Below, in pieces: positions 11,039 through 36,476 of a stretch of 40,871 nucleotides of DNA. Source of the DNA: a virus; IMG/VR virus record IMGVR_UViG_3300013101_000027, positions 1 to 40,871 of that record; one strand, written 5' to 3'. The notes beneath the pieces are model-generated. The model worked only from the letters and a program-made list of their open reading frames with translations, did no database searches and was not told the origin of the DNA. Positions within the stretch are counted from its first letter, which is position 1. Each line of letters starts with the position of its first letter. A program made the position numbers and the translations under genes.

Positions 11039-11391
11039 CTAAATCCTTTAAGAGTAGACATCAAACTCGTGATGTTCCCTTGTGCTTTTTGCATGGCCAC
11101 TTGTCGTTTATTTCCCATGGTCATATGGTCTGCCACCTGTTCGTTACGCTTCTTCCTTTGAGCATCGATTGCCCCTACAACAGCTTTTGCAGGCCCTTTA
11201 AGCTTGGAACCTAAAGATCCGCCAACGCTCTTATCATTTCCCGTTGTAACCGCTTGAACCTCTGCCCCGGCACTCTGCTTGACTGCCGCATCAGACATAG
11301 ATTTTTGCTTTTCCTTGGCCGCTTCCGCCGCCTCTTCTTTTTTCTTTTTGTTGCCCATCATTTGGGCCCCCATCGCCATTAGTGGTATCAT
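11035..11391 (-). CDS. Small basic Ala/Lys-rich protein, 118 aa
   Basis: 118 residues with a Met/Ala start (MIPLMAMGAQMMGNKKKK), a charged helical stretch, and a C-terminus rich in Gln, Lys and Met. The ATG sits in a TAATG junction with the secreted protein gene upstream, and its stop overlaps the adaptor start. Likely a minor virion or assembly protein; no family recognised. Confidence 0.5.
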   Translation of the reverse strand: MIPLMAMGAQMMGNKKKKEEAAEAAKEKQKSMSDAAVKQSAGAEVQAVTTGNDKSVGGSLGSKLKGPAKAVVGAIDAQRKKRNEQVADHMTMGNKRQVAMQKAQGNITSLMSTLKGFR

Positions 11392-11804
11392 TAGATCGCC
11401 TCCTTATTAGAAACCCAAACATTGAGTTTCGCTTCTCCTGACTTGCTCTCTGATTCTACCCTAAAGCACTTGAAATATACATGTGCCAAGTTCTGAACCA
11501 GATTACAAGATTCTGTTGTGGTTAATGTTACCTGAGGAATCAGAAAGTAATCCACGCAATTAACTGACCCAAGCACCCTGAATTCAAGTTCACAGGCCCC
11601 TGTACATACTGCAACGGTCTGAAATGTTATCCCATGGGAAAACATGTTCTCGTAATCCCTGGTGAAAGTTGTCCCATTTACTGCCTCATCGATAACTAAA
11701 TGCCATCTCTTGTAGACGTATTTCTGACTAGTTTTCTCTTCTTCTAATATCGGACTAATTGCTAATAATTGAGTCGAAATTAGCAGTAAAAATAAGTATT
11801 TCAT
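11391..11804 (-). CDS. Secreted cysteine-containing protein, 137 aa, with signal peptide
   Basis: ATG 11804 is chosen because it begins a clean Sec signal peptide (MKYLFLLLISTQLLA, cleavage near residue 15) and has GGGGAT upstream, one base after the preceding stop. The mature part is beta-rich with about six cysteines (CTGACELEF, VNCVD, ESCNL, FKCFR), as expected for a protein folding with disulfides outside the cytoplasm. It is the last of three signal-peptide proteins in this cassette. No known family; an envelope-associated accessory to the fibre-like neighbours is a guess. Confidence 0.7.
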   Translation of the reverse strand: MKYLFLLLISTQLLAISPILEEEKTSQKYVYKRWHLVIDEAVNGTTFTRDYENMFSHGITFQTVAVCTGACELEFRVLGSVNCVDYFLIPQVTLTTTESCNLVQNLAHVYFKCFRVESESKSGEAKLNVWVSNKEAI

Positions 11805-11805
11805 A

Positions 11806-13734
11806 TTATATCCCCAATAACGCCTCAAGGGCGTCAATCCGGCTTTCAAGGTTGCTCCTGCTGGACCCCTTGTCCGCGGGAAGGCCTTCCCCCATGAGGC
11901 TCATTAAATCCCAGTCTAAGCTAACTGCTCCTGGTTGGAAATTAATTCTCACTCCATAGGCAGCTTGGGTGAATCCTGACTGAGCTACCCCGTCGTATTC
12001 TTTGTACCCTTCGATTGTCGCCCATGTTGGGTTATTCAATGGGTAGTGATTGAGAATCTCTACATATTTTGTTGGCTGTGGGATAGGTATATCAAGACTC
12101 ATAGTCGTTACCGCACCTACGTTGGGACCGGAGCCCCCTGTGTCCAACAAGGTAACAGAGTATGAGACAGAGGCTCCTGCTTCAAGCGGACTACCGTCTA
12201 TTCTGTATTGGTAGAATTTGGCCGGATCATCTGTCTGAGTGAAAGTTAGTATTGAACCAGGGATCGCCCCTAACAGCTCGGACTCTCTGTTCGTTGTATC
12301 TAGATCGACATCACAGACCCTGACAATGGTTTGTTGATTGTCCCTGCTCCAATTGGAAGGACATACAACGTCACTTTGATCGGTCCCACTATAGGTCCAC
12401 CCTCCCGTTACATTTAAAGCCGCACCAGAGTTAAGTGCCTCTAAAAAAACACCGTAAACCTGTCCAGGCAAAACGAGGACATTGTCTTGTTTTATTCTCG
12501 CCCATTCGCCGGGGCTTAATAAAGGGGAGTCTATTGTAGACATTGTTGGGTCGTCTGGATCTGACCCGTTAACAAAAGTTATTCTGTATGTTATATCAGG
12601 GCCTACTTCTGGGGACCAAACATCTACTGATTTCACCCACCCACCTTTATTGAATGTAAATATGCTGCCAACACCAACAGCGGCAGCCTCACTTTGAACC
12701 ACCCATGTAGGAGTAGCAGTCATGCTATCACTAGCTGATCCAATTTCTACTGGTCCGGCCCTATCGAGTGTGTCCTTGTTGGCAATCATAAGCCATTGAT
12801 TGTCTCGAACTACATTGTTCTTCTTGTACGCTTGAGAAGCCCAAGGGCCCTTCCATAACATTATGTCGGTAGTGCTTATGCCTGAATCGGTTACAACTTT
12901 TCCTGTCGGTTCTGAAAATACTGGGAAGTTGTCGGGGGTAACACTGATGTCGTTGTTACTTACATCGCCCTCTATATCACCAATTCTCACATGCAATACC
13001 CCATCTACAGGATGGTTGTTCAAAACAATTCCAGCGTAGACAAGCCTATTAGGAGGTATCGGCTGAATATTTGTGTACACCCCAGGGGTCGTTGTTAAAA
13101 ACAAAACATCGCCCTCTGAAAAGGCTGAGAGATCAACATCACCTACGTTCCCTTCCGAGGTTACATACCCATTGGTATTGTTTGGAATATCATGAGTTGC
13201 TACCCCAAATACGCCTGATTCGTCTTCTAAGTCTGACAGTGCCACTGATAGCACTTGTCCCGATGTTCCTATTATTTTTACCGGCTTCCCGTTCTCTATC
13301 GTTGCCCCTGTTTTGTTTTTAACCTCAACAATTAGCTCTTCACCAACATTTAGAGTCATGTCCGCTACGTCGTTATAAAAAGAAAGGGAGGCTGATTTTC
13401 TGTCGTAGAATAGCCTCGCTTCACTATATGCAGGAGCAGGGCTTTGAGGAATAAAATCAATCCAATCTATCTCGCCAAGTTGAGGAGTTTGAACACTTGC
13501 CCATTCAACTACCCCTAGTCCATTAGTTACAAGAACCTCGTTTAGGACCCCATCTGATGTTGGGAATGCATAAGGAGGTGACATCAAAGAAGACCCTGTT
13601 GTATCCGCCCACAGAGCAGGAGAATACAAGGTCGAAGTTGCAGGACCTGCAATCGTGCCAGGATCATAAGTTACGAACTGGCTGCACATCTGTGCCTGGG
13701 CACTAAAAGAGAGAAGCAGTAGGAGCCACTTCAT
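11806..13734 (-). CDS. Fibre-like protein with Sec signal peptide, 642 aa
   Basis: Starts with MKWLLLLLSFSAQA, a short Sec signal peptide with AQA cleavage. Residues about 105-255 (ARLFYDRKSASLSFYND, then NKTGATIENGKPVKI and IGDIEGDVS) match a domain common in phage virion structural and fibre proteins. Residues 294-318 (WKGPWASQAYKKNNVV...WLMIA) resemble a CBM5/12-type carbohydrate-binding module. The C-terminus ends in a short coiled coil (SNLESRIDALEALLGI) that could trimerise. The ATG overlaps the upstream TM-protein stop. A signal peptide on a phage fibre is unexpected, because virions assemble in the cytoplasm. It may be a virion fibre with a retained membrane-like N-terminus or a phage-encoded surface adhesin. 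Confidence 0.7.
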   Translation of the reverse strand: MKWLLLLLSFSAQAQMCSQFVTYDPGTIAGPATSTLYSPALWADTTGSSLMSPPYAFPTSDGVLNEVLVTNGLGVVEWASVQTPQLGEIDWIDFIPQSPAPAYSEARLFYDRKSASLSFYNDVADMTLNVGEELIVEVKNKTGATIENGKPVKIIGTSGQVLSVALSDLEDESGVFGVATHDIPNNTNGYVTSEGNVGDVDLSAFSEGDVLFLTTTPGVYTNIQPIPPNRLVYAGIVLNNHPVDGVLHVRIGDIEGDVSNNDISVTPDNFPVFSEPTGKVVTDSGISTTDIMLWKGPWASQAYKKNNVVRDNQWLMIANKDTLDRAGPVEIGSASDSMTATPTWVVQSEAAAVGVGSIFTFNKGGWVKSVDVWSPEVGPDITYRITFVNGSDPDDPTMSTIDSPLLSPGEWARIKQDNVLVLPGQVYGVFLEALNSGAALNVTGGWTYSGTDQSDVVCPSNWSRDNQQTIVRVCDVDLDTTNRESELLGAIPGSILTFTQTDDPAKFYQYRIDGSPLEAGASVSYSVTLLDTGGSGPNVGAVTTMSLDIPIPQPTKYVEILNHYPLNNPTWATIEGYKEYDGVAQSGFTQAAYGVRINFQPGAVSLDWDLMSLMGEGLPADKGSSRSNLESRIDALEALLGI

Positions 13735-13889
13735 TTTTTAAGTAGCTCTGTTTTTATCATCTCTCTTGGTGACTCCACATAGATTTTAAACATGCGGACT
13801 CCTCCGACAATTAAGAGGATCAAGATGAACGCATACAAGTATGGGTTCTTCGCTAATGGCTTCATTAGGTTTGCTATTAATTCTTTCAT
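13731..13889 (-). CDS. Small single-span membrane protein, 52 aa
   Basis: ATG 13889 is preferred: it forms a TAATG junction with the large fibre stop and has GGAG seven bases ahead. The product has one strong transmembrane helix (YLYAFILILLIVGGVRMF) flanked by basic residues and a basic tail. It sits between two genes with signal peptides. It could be a holin-like protein or a membrane partner of the secreted fibres; the sequence does not decide. Confidence 0.6.
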   Translation of the reverse strand: MKELIANLMKPLAKNPYLYAFILILLIVGGVRMFKIYVESPREMIKTELLKK

Positions 13890-16800
13890 TATGGTCTCCA
13901 TGAGAACGTCCAAGTTCCTGTTGAATCTCCTGCATTGCATACTCCATTATAGGAGACTGCTATCTTGTCACCCAATACAACCGGTATGTTCGCGACTGAA
14001 ACATTCATATGCGAACTTGCGGATGCAGGGGGTTCGGCCTCGTTCGATTTCGCCAAAGTGACAACTGACCCTAGCCCTCCACCAAATTCTACTTGTAATG
14101 CAATAGAAAGAGGAGTTGCTACATTAGGATCAGCACAAGATTCTACTGTGTAGGCCGCAGACAAGACACCTGTTTCTTGAGCAATCCACTTCCAATCGTC
14201 TCCGGCCGTCCCTGCTAGAAGTTTACCGCCCGCCACCACTCCATTCGTAGTGCTATGAACAGTCCCATAAGAAACAGTTTTATTATTTGTCAAAAATAGG
14301 TTCCCCGTCTGAGAAAGGACTTCAAGCTCAGGTGTAACTCCTGTTGTGCCCCATTCTAACTCCGTAGGTATTGCAGAGACTTTGAGGACTTGTCCTTCAA
14401 TCCCAACAGCAGAAGGAACAGAATAAAGAGTATTAGAAATAGTTCTACCGTCTTCGGCCGCATAGATGGCGATATTGTTTGTGATGGTTACTGGAGCCGC
14501 AGCAGTAACTCCTTGGACTGTGACCGCGACAGCTAACCCAGTAGTTACCCCGCTTTGATCAACTGCCTCGCCGTAGTATTTATTTGAAAAAGTGAATGTA
14601 GGGTCTGCCCAACTACCGCTAAGTCCAGGTGAAAAATTCTGGATGGCGGTGAGAGTCGCTGCTCCTACATCTGCGGAAGTAGAAGCCCCCGAAACATCAA
14701 CCCTTATATAGGTAAATGCCCCTATACTTGGAGGAGAGTCTGCTCCTGAAACATCATACCAAACAACCTCAGTTCCTATAGTTGTGTCTAGTGTGAAATA
14801 AAGCCCTGTCATACTCCCCGGGGCCAACATGGTACTCGTAGTTGTCTCAATATTATCACCATCATCCCTGCCTTGGAGCATAGTATACTCTGCGACGCCA
14901 CTGGCCCCTGTGTAGGTTGCTGCTCCATAAATTCTTCCGTCATGTGCCCAAAGGACTATAGTACTCCCGCCCCCTATGTTCGACCCCGTGTATCTCGTAG
15001 TGCCGTCCATAGCAGCTATCATCGCTGTTTGTATATCGAGCTGACTTGCGGACGCGCTTACATCTATTTTTATGTAGTTAGTGACCCCGGGACCATCATC
15101 GACAGGTTGGCTATCGGACCCCGTAACATCCCACCAGAATACATCTGAGGTGGTGGTGTCGTCTGGGAACCGCCTAAAGTATTCACCGCTTAAAGAAGCG
15201 GTAGTGCTAGGGAGCCCCACTGTTATGTTTTGATTGACGGCCGATGTTCCTACCATAATGTCGAGCACAGCGGGGGCACCCCCGTAAGAAACGCTTCCAC
15301 CAGCGGCACCCCAATAAAGGCCCGCATTGTTTCCGGCAGTGTGTAGGACGTATCCACTGGGACCATCATTTAGCCAGGTGGGGCTGTTTGTTCCGTCAGT
15401 CTGAAGGACAAGACCGGACAAACCACCGTCCGAAGGGAATCCCCCCGCATTTGCGAAGACCAGGGCACGTGAAGAGTTGGCGCTATTCACTACGGTCAGG
15501 ATTTGTCCGTCGGTACCAATGGTTGTTGGTATTCCGTAAGACAGGGAGTCTATAACCTGCCCTGTGTTGTCGGCGAAGATAGCAAACTTCCCTTCTACGT
15601 TATATGTTGGAGCCCCTTTTTGGACAAGGCTCGTTGAGAACATGTCGTTATTAGCGTTTGTTGAGTTCTGTGTGTATTCGGTGAACGGGTTAAACGACAG
15701 AGTTTCCTCTACCAAGAAGCTCATTCTAATTGTTTCAGATGCCGTTCTTGAGACGATCCACGGAACGAATCCGCTTAGCGGATCCGCATACCCATCCAGA
15801 CTCTCAAAAAATAAATCGACATTGACGGCAATGCCCTCTGGATCACTGGGGTCACCTTGCGATCCGATACAAGAATTAGAAGTGATATTAGGGGTTATTG
15901 CATTACAATAATCTTGAACGTTTTGCTCCCAATTCGAATCCATCCCTGACATATTAAGGCAGTTCTTATTATAGCTATTCAGACGAGTATCACCGCTTCT
16001 CCTGTATGTAATGGCCATTCCATCGGTAACGTTCCCCACAGGCTCCACCCCACATACATAGCCCTCAAGCCAAATTATATCCCAGATCTCCCTTTGATTT
16101 GTGGTTGAAGTGGCAAGACTTGTTACATCCCCACCACCACCTAAAGAGACAGTTTGGTTTTTCCATTGAGTGGTAGACGCTTCATAAACTAAAGTCTGCC
16201 CATCTACCGGAGTGGCAAGGGTTACATCAGTTAGATCATTTAGGGCCCCACCTCCACCGCCGGTGGGCGTGTTTATCCAAGATAAGTTTCCACTCGCATC
16301 GGACTCTAATATTTGATTTGCCACTAAAGGCCCTGCCGGAGGTAGAGTTAGAAAATATTGCCCTGTCATAGGGTTTGGAGGTTGAATAAGAATCTGACCA
16401 CCCAGACCGTTAAAAATTAGCATAGGTTGTGGGATAGCTTCACCGTCGCCAATGACAACCGCGGCCCAATTGCTCTGTGCTTCTAAGCTCACTACGGGAG
16501 TACTTGTATCGCTATAAAGTCTTATATCTGTTTTCTGGTCGTTATCCTTATCCGTAGTAATTCTCACACCGGCCCAATCTCCGCCAACGCCAGTTATATC
16601 CGCTAGAAAGTTATACTGAGCGACAGCCCCTGGAATGTAAGTTGCCCTACCGCCATTATCTGAAATCAGTTTCCCTGTAGTAGCATCAAAAAATGCAAAT
16701 GAGTTAACCACAGCACTTGCAGGGCCTACAACGTCTCCGCCTCCGCCTCCGCCTCCACCTTGAAGAGTCCAATTGAGCGTAACTCCAGAATCCGTTTTAA

Positions 16801-17038
16801 TGTACATTTCTGCCGTGCCAGACCTAATGTATACATCTCCCGCAATTCCGTCCTTAGCGACCGCCGAGGGGTCGTCTGTGTCGCCTGTGATATATCTATT
16901 TAAAGATGGTGAGAACTGAAGGCTATCCTTCAAGCATTTCACGCTACTTCCCGCAAAAATACAGGCATCTGCCTTGGAATCAAAAGAGAAGAGAAGTATG
17001 AATATGGCCGCTGTGAAAATAAAGTTTTCTTTTTTCAT
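13889..17038 (-). CDS. Large fibre-like protein with Sec signal peptide, 1049 aa
   Basis: Residues 1-25 form a signal peptide (two lysines, hydrophobic core FIFTAAIFILLFSF, cleavage SKADA/C). Gly8 at 94-101 leads into DVVGPASAVVNSFAFFDATT, the stalk-type repeat of phage tail fibres. Two copies of a beta-module (YF...WWDVTG...IKIDVS from about 620, and YFTLD...WYDVSG...IRVDVS from about 746) follow. The C-terminal 100 residues look like a compact jelly-roll-type head. Cysteines cluster after the signal peptide and near residues 320-390 (VCGVE, NCLNM, DYCNA, SCIGS). AGGA precedes ATG 17038. It reads as a trimeric fibre exported to the periplasm or surface, or a virion fibre with an anchor; which one is unresolved. 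Confidence 0.75.
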   Translation of the reverse strand: MKKENFIFTAAIFILLFSFDSKADACIFAGSSVKCLKDSLQFSPSLNRYITGDTDDPSAVAKDGIAGDVYIRSGTAEMYIKTDSGVTLNWTLQGGGGGGGGDVVGPASAVVNSFAFFDATTGKLISDNGGRATYIPGAVAQYNFLADITGVGGDWAGVRITTDKDNDQKTDIRLYSDTSTPVVSLEAQSNWAAVVIGDGEAIPQPMLIFNGLGGQILIQPPNPMTGQYFLTLPPAGPLVANQILESDASGNLSWINTPTGGGGGALNDLTDVTLATPVDGQTLVYEASTTQWKNQTVSLGGGGDVTSLATSTTNQREIWDIIWLEGYVCGVEPVGNVTDGMAITYRRSGDTRLNSYNKNCLNMSGMDSNWEQNVQDYCNAITPNITSNSCIGSQGDPSDPEGIAVNVDLFFESLDGYADPLSGFVPWIVSRTASETIRMSFLVEETLSFNPFTEYTQNSTNANNDMFSTSLVQKGAPTYNVEGKFAIFADNTGQVIDSLSYGIPTTIGTDGQILTVVNSANSSRALVFANAGGFPSDGGLSGLVLQTDGTNSPTWLNDGPSGYVLHTAGNNAGLYWGAAGGSVSYGGAPAVLDIMVGTSAVNQNITVGLPSTTASLSGEYFRRFPDDTTTSDVFWWDVTGSDSQPVDDGPGVTNYIKIDVSASASQLDIQTAMIAAMDGTTRYTGSNIGGGSTIVLWAHDGRIYGAATYTGASGVAEYTMLQGRDDGDNIETTTSTMLAPGSMTGLYFTLDTTIGTEVVWYDVSGADSPPSIGAFTYIRVDVSGASTSADVGAATLTAIQNFSPGLSGSWADPTFTFSNKYYGEAVDQSGVTTGLAVAVTVQGVTAAAPVTITNNIAIYAAEDGRTISNTLYSVPSAVGIEGQVLKVSAIPTELEWGTTGVTPELEVLSQTGNLFLTNNKTVSYGTVHSTTNGVVAGGKLLAGTAGDDWKWIAQETGVLSAAYTVESCADPNVATPLSIALQVEFGGGLGSVVTLAKSNEAEPPASASSHMNVSVANIPVVLGDKIAVSYNGVCNAGDSTGTWTFSWRP

Positions 17039-17040
17039 CG

Positions 17041-17862
17041 TTATCCTACGTAGTTGATAATGTTTTCTCCGACATCCACAGTGGCAATACCTATGGCCCG
17101 AAGAGATAGTCTAGAGTTTGCTGGTATACTCACCGCTATATTGTTATTCCCCCCTGGGAAAATATATAGTTCATGAACTTCTGAAGGAGCGACCCCCACA
17201 CCTAATTCCAGGGTGTATCCTGCGCTATCAAATATCTGAATTTCTGTTATTGCTTTCGCCCCAGTGTCAGCGACGATTTGAACCCACGCTCCAGTGGTTA
17301 CATTGGTTACGCTATAATCAATCCGGCTTGTTAAAACTACATCTTGAGCGACCGAGGAGGCTCCGGAAGTATTCACAAGAAGAATCCCGTTTACATCTGT
17401 TTGCAGCCAGACAGTAGTGTTATCAGCGTTGGTTGGAAGAGATGCATTGTACTTGGCAACCTTGCTATCTCCTGCGACACCACCACTCGCCGCGGCGGCA
17501 ACAGATGAGTATCGATATACGTCGAATGTTCCGCCAACAATATTTAATGTGGTAGCGGATCCTATTGTGAATGAATTGGCATCACTCACCCCTATGACTG
17601 CGACCTCAGCTCCGACTAGGGCCGTGGGGGTAACAAACTTAATCATGTCGCCGACTCGGGCCCCGTGGGCAGTCGATAGGATTATATTGCCTGCTGACCC
17701 GGCTAAAATCGTGTGACTTGTTGAAAATTCACTCGCTGTAATCGAGATGACATCCAGGGCGTGCCTTTTAGCGGCAACTGGTTGAAGGGTGGCGTAGTTG
17801 GCCGTAAGACCGCCACCTTCAAGTAATTTATCGGATGTTGGAAAACCTTTTATAATGCTCAT
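17041..17862 (-). CDS. Beta-rich virion protein, 273 aa
   Basis: 273 residues, rich in Ala, Val, Ser and Thr and low in charge, with alternating beta patterns. STAHGARVGDMIKFV followed by ANSFTIGSA resembles a small beta-domain often found in phage fibre and structural proteins. A strong GGAGG precedes ATG 17862. The position between capsid and fibre genes suggests a capsid fibre, decoration or tail protein. No signal peptide, unlike the next gene. Family not identified. Confidence 0.6.
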   Translation of the reverse strand: MSIIKGFPTSDKLLEGGGLTANYATLQPVAAKRHALDVISITASEFSTSHTILAGSAGNIILSTAHGARVGDMIKFVTPTALVGAEVAVIGVSDANSFTIGSATTLNIVGGTFDVYRYSSVAAAASGGVAGDSKVAKYNASLPTNADNTTVWLQTDVNGILLVNTSGASSVAQDVVLTSRIDYSVTNVTTGAWVQIVADTGAKAITEIQIFDSAGYTLELGVGVAPSEVHELYIFPGGNNNIAVSIPANSRLSLRAIGIATVDVGENIINYVG

Positions 17863-30725: not shown

Positions 30726-30995
30726 ATGTTAGAAAGATTGCAATCGATGGCAACAACACAGAAGGTCACAGCTAGGTTATTGGGTATTAAGAGCGGTTCT
30801 AAGCTTCTTGATTCTCCCCTTGCTGATTACCTGAATAATTTAATTGGAAGTGATAAGGATTTATTTACGGCACTTCATAAGTCGGCGGGCATCAGCTCGT
30901 CAACCATGAAACAGATATTGGCGGCAACTATATTTTGCCCGCCGAAAAAGAGATTGGAAGGATTTGCGTCAATTATTAATAAAAGGGGATTATAA
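30726..30995 (+). CDS. Small HTH-like early protein, 89 aa
   Basis: 89 residues. The segment DLFTALHKSAGISSSTMKQI followed by a Cys-Pro-Pro and RLEGFASII resembles a helix-turn-helix of XRE type, where AGISSSTMKQIL would be the HTH. First gene behind the early promoter, with AAAGGGG ahead of ATG. It may regulate early transcription; DNA binding is inferred from the motif only. Confidence 0.55.
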   Translation: MLERLQSMATTQKVTARLLGIKSGSKLLDSPLADYLNNLIGSDKDLFTALHKSAGISSSTMKQILAATIFCPPKKRLEGFASIINKRGL

Positions 30996-31669
30996 TGCAA
31001 AATTTACAGAAAATATTAGGTACGGGAATGAAGACTGAAAAGGGTGAAAGGGCCGGCTATTTAACCGCTGTTAGCTATTTATTACCGAATAAGGATATTT
31101 GTAAGGGTAGTTCAAAAGAATGTCTTAAATCTTGTTTGAAGGATTCGGGGCGGTTAGTTATGCCGAATGTTAGAACGGCCATGAAAAGAAAGAGTGATTT
31201 ATACCAAAATGATATTGATCTTTTTAAGGCAAGTTTAATAAATGATATTGGAAAGCATGAAAAGAAGGCAATTAGAAAGGGATTGATTCCGGTAGTTAGA
31301 ATTAATGGGACAAGTGACATCGATGTGCAAAGTTTGGGAGTAATTGAGCAATTCCCTAATGTGCAATTTTATGATTATACCAAATTATTTGACCGATATA
31401 GTCACGAATCTAATTACCATTTAACCTATTCTTTTGATGGTCATAATTTAGGGGAATGCGTGAAGAAACTTATGCAAGGTTTAAATGTTGCCATGGTTTT
31501 TAATTGTGATGAGTTACCTAAATCATATAAAGGTTTTCCGGTTATTGATGGGGATAAAGATGATTTAAGGTTTCTCGATGGTTTTGGCGCAATTGTGGGC
31601 CTAAAAGTTAAGGGTAAAGCGAAAAAATATGAAAATGCATTTATTATCAATTTAAAAGGGGGGAAATAA
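30995..31669 (+). CDS. Gp88-family phage protein, 224 aa
   Basis: 224 residues matching the family named after mycobacteriophage gp88: GMKTEKGERAGYLTAVSYLL at 11-30, cysteines C36, C43 and C47 in ICKGSSKECLKSC, RINGTSDID at 102-110, QFYDYTKLFDRY, NYHLTYSFDG, and the C-terminal VIDGDKDDLRF and AIVGLKVKGK. The family is widespread in phages; to my knowledge its biochemical role is unknown. The conserved cysteines could bind metal or an Fe-S cluster (inference). TAATG coupling to the HTH gene. Confidence 0.8.
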   Translation: MQNLQKILGTGMKTEKGERAGYLTAVSYLLPNKDICKGSSKECLKSCLKDSGRLVMPNVRTAMKRKSDLYQNDIDLFKASLINDIGKHEKKAIRKGLIPVVRINGTSDIDVQSLGVIEQFPNVQFYDYTKLFDRYSHESNYHLTYSFDGHNLGECVKKLMQGLNVAMVFNCDELPKSYKGFPVIDGDKDDLRFLDGFGAIVGLKVKGKAKKYENAFIINLKGGK

Positions 31670-33330: not shown

Positions 33331-35709
33331 GTATAGCATTGGATTTGGGACAATTTGAAAGCTCTTTCCTTCCTTTCTGATCTTAATGATATTGTGATCT
33401 TCTAAGATTTCCCTGACTGCTTTCCATTGATGTCGATCCCCATACAGTCTTTTATGATAGGTTCCGAAATCTCTTACTGTTATTCCCATTTCAATTTTCC
33501 CAGTTCTAAAGTGATCAGATATTTCACGAGAGATATCATAAAAAGGAGCTTTAAAAGCATGGTTAATATTTTGGTAATTGTAATCTAGAAGTTTTATGGC
33601 CTTTTCTAGGTAAGGAAGTTCGATATCGCTAAAAGCGATATTTGTAGATACGAATTGAATTAGGTAAGCAAGCTTTACTGCTAGACCGCGGAACTTGCCA
33701 ACAAAAGAAGCGATAGAATCATTTTCCTCGGCAAGTACTCTTTCCTCTATTTCCTCGAGATATGCCATCATGCGGATATAGGCATTTTCAGAAAGTTTTA
33801 TTTCCTCACCTGGTTCGAGATTGCTTCCTTGAAAAAATGGGCCCTTTGCTTTTTCTAGTAATTTATTATGGCAAACATCATCAACAATAGCGTGTTTTTT
33901 CTCCTCATCAAATACGATAAACGCCCTTTGAACAAAGCCATCATCGACTCTTTTGAGATCGTTTATAATCCTGGAATGCAATACAGATGGCTGTATATTA
34001 GCAATGAGTGACCCGCAAAGCTCCTCTATCATGTTGCTTTCTTGCGTCTTGGTTTGGTAAGTGAAGCTCTTATTTCCATCCCATGAGTTCATGACTAGGG
34101 TTCTCATTAGCTCATATCCCTTCTTATTGAATTGATCTAGTAGGGTTGAGGCCTCGTTAAAATACATTAAGACGCCATGAGGGTTAGAATCAAATATTTG
34201 GAATAGTTTTTCCGGGGTTACTACTTGAGCGATGAACGATTCACATTTAAGGGGTTCATCTACTATTGATTGGCTTACTGCTAGTTCTACGCTTAGGGCC
34301 TGTAATTTTTCATCGCTTGGAGTATCCTCGTCGAGTTCCCTTGATAGTTCCTTGTTTATCTTTCTAACCTTTAGTTTTGCTATGCTTTTCATTTCTATCA
34401 CTTTTACGGCCAATTTCTTTTTTTCCTCGAGTCCTTCTTTATCTATTTCTTCAAGTATGGAAAGAATAAGAGAGGATATAGAGGATTTTTTTCTACCTGA
34501 TTTGGCTACAAACAGAGTCCAAATATTAGCGGCTTCTGACCATGGATCATTTTTTTTTGGTTTTATTTTAACTTTGTTACCGATAACAGAAGATAGTCCT
34601 GTCAGGGCATACATAAACATTGGGCCGGGGTCAACTCCCATATTTCTAGCTGTTTTTTGAATCCATTCGTTCCATGTGTCTGGAATAATATCAACATCAA
34701 ATTCTACCTTTCCCCCTCCATCTCTTATAGCTGTAGGCCTCTCCCAATCCTCGTTTTCTATGAAATAGTTGAAATTGCTCGGAGTCGGCACTTCTATCTC
34801 GTGACCGTTTTTTCCCTGGCCTATACTTTGTAGGAATTCAATATATATGGACATGGTGGTAAGTCTAAGTGATCCGGTTTTTTGATGTTTGGCATATTTT
34901 TCGGTGTCTGTCATTAGTGGATTGAACTTGTTTCTGACTCTATCTCTTTCCATGATCTCGTCGACGGCTTCGTCCATTGGTGTTTTGTTCCGGGCCAGAC
35001 TACTCATGAAGGTTTGCATATCCTGGAATCGGCCACCGTCTTCATTATTTTCAGAGTGTATTAGTGTCAGAGGTTTATCAGGTTCAGCATATTTCCCGAT
35101 TCTGTTACATAATCTTTCGGCAGTGGCTTCGGTCTGTTGCCAATCTAAAACAGGAAGAGCATCTTTATCTACTGTGGCCAGGTCTTCAAAGAGCCATTTG
35201 AAATACATCGGGTCACCATCTTCCGGCTGACTATGAAGAGATGGTGGAATTACTGTATATCTTTTAGAGTAGAATATTTCCACATCAGGAGTTTTCTTTC
35301 CTGGTCTAGAGAATTTCCTCATGTTGGAAGTCGGAAGATTTACCCTAGCATCGTATTGATCATACATTCTAAAAAATCTGGTCTCGCCCTTCTCTCCTCT
35401 TTTTACACAGGGAGATCGTGGGAGCCCTGCCAGGATTTCGGCATCATCACAGTCGATATCTATGGCCACAAGATTAGAGGCGGTCCCTAGGACTACTCCT
35501 ATTCCTACCACCTGGCCGTTGTTTCTCCATTGGTCGATGTCTTTTGATGTTGTTAGCCGGTCTGAAAATTCCTGCCAATTAGTTATCTTGCATGCTTTTC
35601 CACTGAACCTGTTCTTTGATTTATCCCAAGTCTTCATGGTGGGTATTACAGAAATCTCATTTTCTATTAACTCTTCCATCAGTCCAAATATTGCGTTCCT
35701 TGATATCAA
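33325..35709 (-). CDS. Prim-Pol (AEP) primase fused to DUF3987-type helicase-like region, 794 aa
   Basis: The N-terminal domain is of bifunctional primase-polymerase type: VVLGTASNLVAIDIDCDDAE with catalytic D84 and D86, and VEIFYSKRYTVIPPSLH (143-159), the family's C-terminal strand motif. Around 402-410, AKSGRKKSS is a variant P-loop, and the following helical region with SLIANIQPSVL and an Arg/Asp-rich end fits DUF3987 helicase-like proteins. It would prime, and perhaps extend, DNA at the fork. No separate DNA polymerase was found. Last gene of the minus-strand replication operon. Confidence 0.8.
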   Translation of the reverse strand: MISRNAIFGLMEELIENEISVIPTMKTWDKSKNRFSGKACKITNWQEFSDRLTTSKDIDQWRNNGQVVGIGVVLGTASNLVAIDIDCDDAEILAGLPRSPCVKRGEKGETRFFRMYDQYDARVNLPTSNMRKFSRPGKKTPDVEIFYSKRYTVIPPSLHSQPEDGDPMYFKWLFEDLATVDKDALPVLDWQQTEATAERLCNRIGKYAEPDKPLTLIHSENNEDGGRFQDMQTFMSSLARNKTPMDEAVDEIMERDRVRNKFNPLMTDTEKYAKHQKTGSLRLTTMSIYIEFLQSIGQGKNGHEIEVPTPSNFNYFIENEDWERPTAIRDGGGKVEFDVDIIPDTWNEWIQKTARNMGVDPGPMFMYALTGLSSVIGNKVKIKPKKNDPWSEAANIWTLFVAKSGRKKSSISSLILSILEEIDKEGLEEKKKLAVKVIEMKSIAKLKVRKINKELSRELDEDTPSDEKLQALSVELAVSQSIVDEPLKCESFIAQVVTPEKLFQIFDSNPHGVLMYFNEASTLLDQFNKKGYELMRTLVMNSWDGNKSFTYQTKTQESNMIEELCGSLIANIQPSVLHSRIINDLKRVDDGFVQRAFIVFDEEKKHAIVDDVCHNKLLEKAKGPFFQGSNLEPGEEIKLSENAYIRMMAYLEEIEERVLAEENDSIASFVGKFRGLAVKLAYLIQFVSTNIAFSDIELPYLEKAIKLLDYNYQNINHAFKAPFYDISREISDHFRTGKIEMGITVRDFGTYHKRLYGDRHQWKAVREILEDHNIIKIRKEGKSFQIVPNPMLYK

Positions 35710-36476
35710 ACTTTCCCCCCTTTGCTTTTAAGTATTTCTTCTGTTCTATCGTCTATTAGATCAGCGAACTCTATTTCGCAGAATAATCCACAATCAGGTA
35801 TTATTATTTTTTGATCATGACCCTCACCAGGGATTAAATCTTTTAATGGCTTTTCCTTAATACAGGATCTTCCTATAGATTCCTCGAGTTTGCTCATCTT
35901 TTGGAACTGCTCCGGGAAATGTTCTCGGACTAAATTCCAGTAACCTTTTCCGCCTTTTACACATCCAATGCAATTGTTATTTGGGAACCCTAATTTATAC
36001 ATCGCCGGAAGTTCTATTCCTCTGTTCTCGATGATCCCATGGCATCGTGGTTTTGTTATTCCATTTTCTATTAAAGGGAATTCGGCCTTAGTATCCGGGT
36101 ATTGCTCCACGAATCTAACGGCCCTATTGATTTCTCTCTTAGCGAATTCGAACCCAAATATTTGTCTTTCAAAGTTGGATTCTTTTTCTACTTTAAATCT
36201 TAGGTTTTTCTTAAGCTCTAGTGTACATCTTGCCCCGGCAGCTCCATTGATATATCTGGTTTTCTCGATTACATCAAAATGATCTTTGTATTTTCCAGAT
36301 ACTCTTTCTATCTTTTGGCCAAACCATTCCTCACATTCTTTTATAAATCTCTCGTTGTCCGGGTGAGCAGATTCGATGTGAAAGTAAATTATCCGGACGT
36401 TGTCATATTTTTTTAGTGCTATTTTCGTTGCAACTGCAGAAGTTACTCCTGCTGAGAACCATGCTATTGTTTCCAT
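35706..36476 (-). CDS. PAPS reductase-like PP-loop protein
   Basis: 256 residues. The PP-loop reads WFSAGVTSAVATKIAL (6-21), a variant of the S-G-G-x-D-S motif found in phage PAPS-reductase/DndC-like proteins. GARCTLELKK (81-90), NNNCIGCVKGGKGYWN (166-181) and CGLFC (229-233) supply cysteines C84, C169, C172, C229 and C233 that could hold an Fe-S cluster. The family activates substrates by adenylation or handles sulfur; the actual reaction here is unknown. ATG 36476 has GGGAG ahead and overlaps the VRR-NUC gene by 74 bases. Confidence 0.75.
   Translation of the reverse strand: METIAWFSAGVTSAVATKIALKKYDNVRIIYFHIESAHPDNERFIKECEEWFGQKIERVSGKYKDHFDVIEKTRYINGAAGARCTLELKKNLRFKVEKESNFERQIFGFEFAKREINRAVRFVEQYPDTKAEFPLIENGITKPRCHGIIENRGIELPAMYKLGFPNNNCIGCVKGGKGYWNLVREHFPEQFQKMSKLEESIGRSCIKEKPLKDLIPGEGHDQKIIIPDCGLFCEIEFADLIDDRTEEILKSKGGKV

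Follow-up and report, generated by a model that had tools for sequence, protein, structure and literature searches.

The window, by which we mean the whole stretch of DNA analyzed, is an IMG/VR virus record of 40,871 bases that looks like a short-tailed phage and carries a late operon on its minus strand. Along this strand the order is terminase, portal, major capsid protein (MCP), a 118-aa protein, a 273-aa protein, the fibre cassette described here, an SU10-type adaptor, and large tail or internal proteins. The MCP, portal, and TerL genes therefore lie upstream of the cassette and the gene for the SU10 adaptor-like protein downstream, which places the 1049-aa gene between the head and tail genes of the late structural operon. 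The MCP belongs to PHROG 14242 and has more than 100 relatives in IMG/VR; its identity to that of any named phage is only ~25%. The early region encodes a PAPS-reductase-like protein and a Gp88 family protein (35706-36476 and 30995-31669). A stretch of approximately 113 bp (281-393), upstream of a plus-strand YqaJ-like gene, matches a distant phage contig, G011, at 91%, possibly reflecting a shared promoter or regulatory leader; the two short G011 stretches involved (L171:613-682 and L172:17392-17438) lie near both contig ends. The features of the cassette and its upstream neighbour are listed in Table 1.

Table 1. Features of the fibre cassette and the adjoining structural gene, in window positions (SP, signal peptide).
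Feature	Position	Strand	Remarks
137-aa exported protein (predicted)	11391..11804	-	SP 1-15
642-aa second exported fibre (predicted)	11806..13734	-	SP 1-14
One-span membrane protein	13731..13889 (52 aa) or 13731-13940 (69 aa, as listed)	-	
1049-aa exported tail fibre (predicted)	13889..17038	-	SP 1-25, N-domain ~26-95, mosaic body, C-terminal tip
Fibre module	16254..16738	-	DNA identity of 92% with the SP-bearing fibre of distant phage L082/G011
N-terminal fibre domain CIFAGSSVKCLK...	16739..16963	-	Alignment; common to SP-bearing and SP-less fibres
SP of the 1049-aa fibre, MKKENFIFTAAIFILLFSFDSKADA	16964..17038	-	Predicted cleavage between ADA and C26
273-aa structural protein (KGFPTSDK...)	17041..17862	-	SP-less; candidate docking partner of the fibre

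A sequence-only reading of this DNA had described two fibre-like proteins, a small partner, and a one-span membrane protein between the fibres, and all four ORFs were found on the minus strand in that arrangement. The 1049-aa ORF begins with MKKENFIFTAAIFILLFSFDSKADA followed directly by C, the first residue of an N-terminal domain whose consensus among orthologous fibres is IFxGxxVKxLK... and which AlphaFold2 models as all-beta (mean pLDDT 89). Two cysteines flank the first hairpin of this domain in the window and in one relative (L002); judging from strand register, C26 and C35 would face each other across the hairpin, and such a pair could form a disulfide. Searches of PDB, Pfam, and folds returned no informative named match and no significant structural match for the domain, and we therefore propose no binding partner for it. 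No direct relatives of the 1049-aa protein were found in viral contigs or annotated phages. Pfam scans recognized C1q tips in relatives and no receptor-binding tip in the window fibres; they detected no YadA-type C-terminal membrane anchor or autotransporter domain in the fibres of either.

The 642-aa fibre starts with MKWLLLLLSFSAQA followed by Q. Its residues 31-612 are 49% identical to an SP-bearing fibre of a second, distant phage (L082), and a Vibrio phage D479 protein that lacks an SP matches its residues 291-612. The 137-aa protein, which starts with MKYLFLLLISTQLLA followed by I at an internal ATG of a 152-aa ORF, is modelled with low confidence (pLDDT 69) as a beta-sandwich whose best matches are small beta-sandwich phage proteins. 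For the one-span membrane protein, the 52-aa form, whose ATG at 13889 lies right against the fibre stop codon, is more likely than the 69-aa form; it may be holin-like. Small membrane proteins also lie downstream of the fibre in L011, L138, L130, and L101. In the last of these, the region right after the SP-bearing fibre (L101:16729-18517) encodes two small membrane proteins, a lipoprotein-like protein, and an Amidase_2 endolysin, which together constitute a lysis cassette. Weakly similar small proteins with predicted export follow the SP-bearing fibre immediately in three other phages (L011:16198-16764, L131:12204-13058, and L126:19459-19923) and possibly form a fibre-associated exported family. 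Co-export of a fibre chaperone was considered and rejected: a profile built from the small SP-less proteins found downstream of SP-less fibres missed the exported small proteins.

Signal peptides were called with a home-made rule for the n-, h-, and c-regions, and the counts for the window and for its SP-less relative L155 cover genes of at least 100 aa. The Sec signals claimed from sequence for the 1049-, 642-, and 137-aa proteins, inside the structural operon, were recovered in all three, each with a positive n-region, a hydrophobic h-region, and a small-x-small cleavage site; they are the only positives among the 34 genes counted in the window, and L155 has none among 39. In related loci, the rule accepted 6 of the 283 ORFs that precede the fibre, a false-positive rate of ~2%. 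Across the leaders h-regions are short, and in most the small-x-small site (usually AxA) lies exactly before the conserved domain. Because the SP of the 1049-aa protein directly precedes the domain that opens its SP-less orthologues, the case for this SP is independent of any predictor. No ATG, GTG, or TTG occurs within this leader, which argues against a leaderless form arising through internal initiation; the same absence was noted in the leaders of L126 and L131. Sec export of the cassette fibres, as predicted from these sequences, is well supported. The mature parts contain cysteines, as had been noted, with 8, 3, and 5 in the 1049-, 642-, and 137-aa proteins. SP-bearing fibres show a weak cysteine excess over SP-less ones (Mann-Whitney p = 0.03, among related sequences). 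Set against the remaining genes in their own genomes, the predicted exported proteins show a cysteine excess that falls short of significance (Wilcoxon p = 0.10), for which reason cysteine enrichment was dropped as proof of periplasmic folding.

The search for homologues in other phages, which had been proposed alongside these claims, yielded 32 orthologues of the fibre in related IMG/VR phages, all occupying the equivalent place in the operon, both SP-bearing and SP-less. They have one N-domain in common, as determined by alignment and HMM matches, and sit after a conserved KGYPS-type structural protein; the counterpart of the window's 273-aa protein is kept directly upstream of the fibre whether or not an SP is present. 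In 17 of the 32 the N-domain begins 0-5 residues from the start codon, and an in-frame stop precedes the listed start by 1-14 codons. The remaining 15 carry a hydrophobic leader, mostly of 19-36 residues, fused directly to the N-domain and ending in AxA or similar in most cases. This SP-bearing set includes L147, whose state is ambiguous because an internal ATG lies just before the domain, and L129 and L121, which are incomplete or short; the leader of L084 contains a possible lipobox and can be interpreted as that of a lipoprotein. SP-bearing fibres in the alignment retain a conserved N-domain. Since the SP-less fibre of L155 contains a Phage Tail Collar domain (PF07484, 7.6e-19), the exported proteins are best read as tail fibres to which an SP has been added. 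Similarly, C1q domains occur in the SP-less fibres of L080, L107, and L112.

Other arrangements were observed at or near this position. In L146 (10600-12700) the main fibre is SP-less with an apparent ATT start, and a second, seemingly frameshifted protein downstream bears an SP. At the same place in L056 (13186-16835), a 672-aa SP-bearing fibre with a different N-terminus is accompanied by a 160-aa SP-bearing protein and a lipoprotein-like protein of 237 aa.

The presence of an SP changes repeatedly across this group. We counted seven changes on the MCP tree, at least four of them forced by well-supported branches, and seven on the portal tree (a quick tree without L147), at least seven of them so forced; both trees treat gain in place, loss in place, and a swap of the fibre gene alike, and swaps could account for the switches. 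For instance, the sister phages L101 and L086 have opposite states, as do L138 and L136, and the SP-less L155 is nested within the window's own clade. Read from sequence, a group of uncultured short-tailed phages appears to have had export signals added in front of ordinary tail-fibre genes, which should place the fibres beyond the inner membrane.

The distant phage L082 resembles the window only remotely in capsid, portal, and terminase (MCP E 1e-12). Its SP-bearing fibre is 1102 aa long, and a 485-bp stretch of its gene shares 92% DNA identity with the 1049-aa gene. A 134-aa SP-bearing protein follows this fibre and is similar to the window's 137-aa protein, weakly so once the SPs are removed; the two have a CTG(A)C pair in common. 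Modules of fibres with predicted export thus pass from phage to phage even at this distance, pointing to hosts in common.

We propose that the cassette supplies the tail fibres of the phage itself, along with an accessory protein, all redirected through Sec. Cleavable SPs would direct the three SP-bearing proteins (1049, 642, and 137 aa) through the inner membrane, a step that is well supported, and the cleaved large fibre would have a mature N-terminus equal to that of the cytoplasmic fibres of related phages. The fibres would then trimerize in the periplasm, a compartment that permits disulfides such as C26-C35. Once lysis proteins open the inner membrane, filled virions would meet the periplasmic fibres and the conserved N-domain would dock on the particle, so that receptor-binding proteins would be added at lysis and not in the cytoplasm. 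We consider the chances evenly balanced that this full course, from export through processing and folding in the periplasm to docking on virions at lysis, is correct. The broader proposition, that some tailed phages may finish their particles outside the cytoplasm with Sec-exported fibres and have switched this route repeatedly by gaining or losing the SP, we rate a little short of even. A fibre that still serves the virion by docking at lysis is favoured by the operon position and the conserved N-domain, since conservation in exported fibres is what would be expected if the same virion site were still bound. Against docking, receptor binding could instead lie in SP-less genes of the window (273, 579, 836, and 1291 aa), and L009/L130 contains additional fibre-like genes that lack an SP.

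The main rival reading, raised earlier from sequence, is that the exported fibres have ceased to be virion parts and act on or in the envelope of the infected cell, where they would block superinfection, mask receptors, or make cells stick. The predicted Sec export, the exchange of mosaic fibre bodies among phages, the possible lipobox in the L084 leader, and the SP-bearing phage-like fibres that Bdellovibrio presents on its cell surface (PMC10769870) all agree with such a role. We regard it as rather unlikely, given that the Pfam scans revealed no outer-membrane anchor or autotransporter domain, that the gene still occupies the fibre position within the late structural operon, and that the N-domain is conserved with SP-less fibres. 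A dedicated adhesin or superinfection system is possible, although it is less economical than the virion's own fibre taking an unusual route; the latter is more likely because the operon position is kept, as is the N-domain found in orthologues without an SP, among them the Tail Collar fibre of L155. It is considerably less probable that the phage infects a Bdellovibrio-like predator and that its SP-bearing fibres come from, or feed, the host's repertoire of mosaic adhesive trimers (MATs). MATs, too, have a conserved N-terminal domain behind an SP, and their phage-like tips can be exchanged (PMC10769870); against this, the N-domain belongs to phage fibres, its profile matched no Bdellovibrio protein among PDB sequences, and the four host matches obtained through genome contigs were all small contigs in unrelated MAGs. 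The fibre profile, run against ~985 genomes of three phyla, recovered only the copies in MAGs, prophage-type fibres lacking an SP, and a single weak match that is unrelated.

The remaining alternatives concern the leader itself. As an uncleaved membrane tether, it would hold the fibres to the inner membrane, forming a platform for assembly, a reading to which the hydrophobicity of the leaders and the small one-span membrane proteins adjoining the fibre in several SP-bearing phages lend themselves. We think it improbable, mainly because most leaders place their cleavage site exactly at the domain border; the h-regions are also short, and accessory proteins carry SPs too. A misplaced gene start or a chance hydrophobic N-terminus in front of a working cytoplasmic fibre is largely refuted. 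The home-made rule and the alternative ATG of L147 leave it some room, but the leaders of the window, L126, and L131 offer no alternative start, ~14 orthologues have diverged yet SP-like leaders, and the false-positive rate is low.

The accepted view is that fibres of tailed phages fold and attach in the cytoplasm. Export signals on the fibres of a whole lineage, with SP-less sisters as natural controls, would reveal either a second path to virion completion or a new role for tail fibres at the envelope. Furthermore, the occurrence of both SP states at one locus makes it testable whether MAT-like bacterial fibres began as phage fibres that gained an SP. The literature searched, which included few subscription journals, contained no SP-bearing tail fibres of tailed phages, in line with the earlier remark that no parallel was known.

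Tailed phages package and assemble in the cytoplasm. The closest known counterparts of the window's fibres are those of short-tailed Caudoviricetes, represented by the SP-less L155, L080, L107, and L112, which share the operon position, the N-domain, and the mosaic body and include collar or C1q domains; these fibres start at the domain and are cytoplasmic, whereas those of the window carry a Sec SP and are accompanied by further exported proteins. Filamentous phages make virion proteins with a cleavable signal sequence, namely pVIII and the adsorption protein pIII. A signal sequence on an adsorption protein recalls the window, but inoviruses are unrelated and are extruded through the membrane. 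T5 Llp is a phage superinfection-exclusion lipoprotein. Proteins of this type are phage-encoded, exported, and active at the envelope, like the predicted exported proteins of the window; unlike them, they are small lipoproteins, neither fibres nor located in a structural operon. In the MATs of Bdellovibrio bacteriovorus, an SP precedes a conserved N-terminal domain of ~130 aa, and the tips are phage-like and swappable (PMC10769870); the window fibre has its SP directly before a conserved N-terminal domain in the same way. MATs, however, are encoded on a bacterial chromosome and displayed on the surface, whereas the window gene lies in a phage record and its N-domain is common to phage tail fibres.
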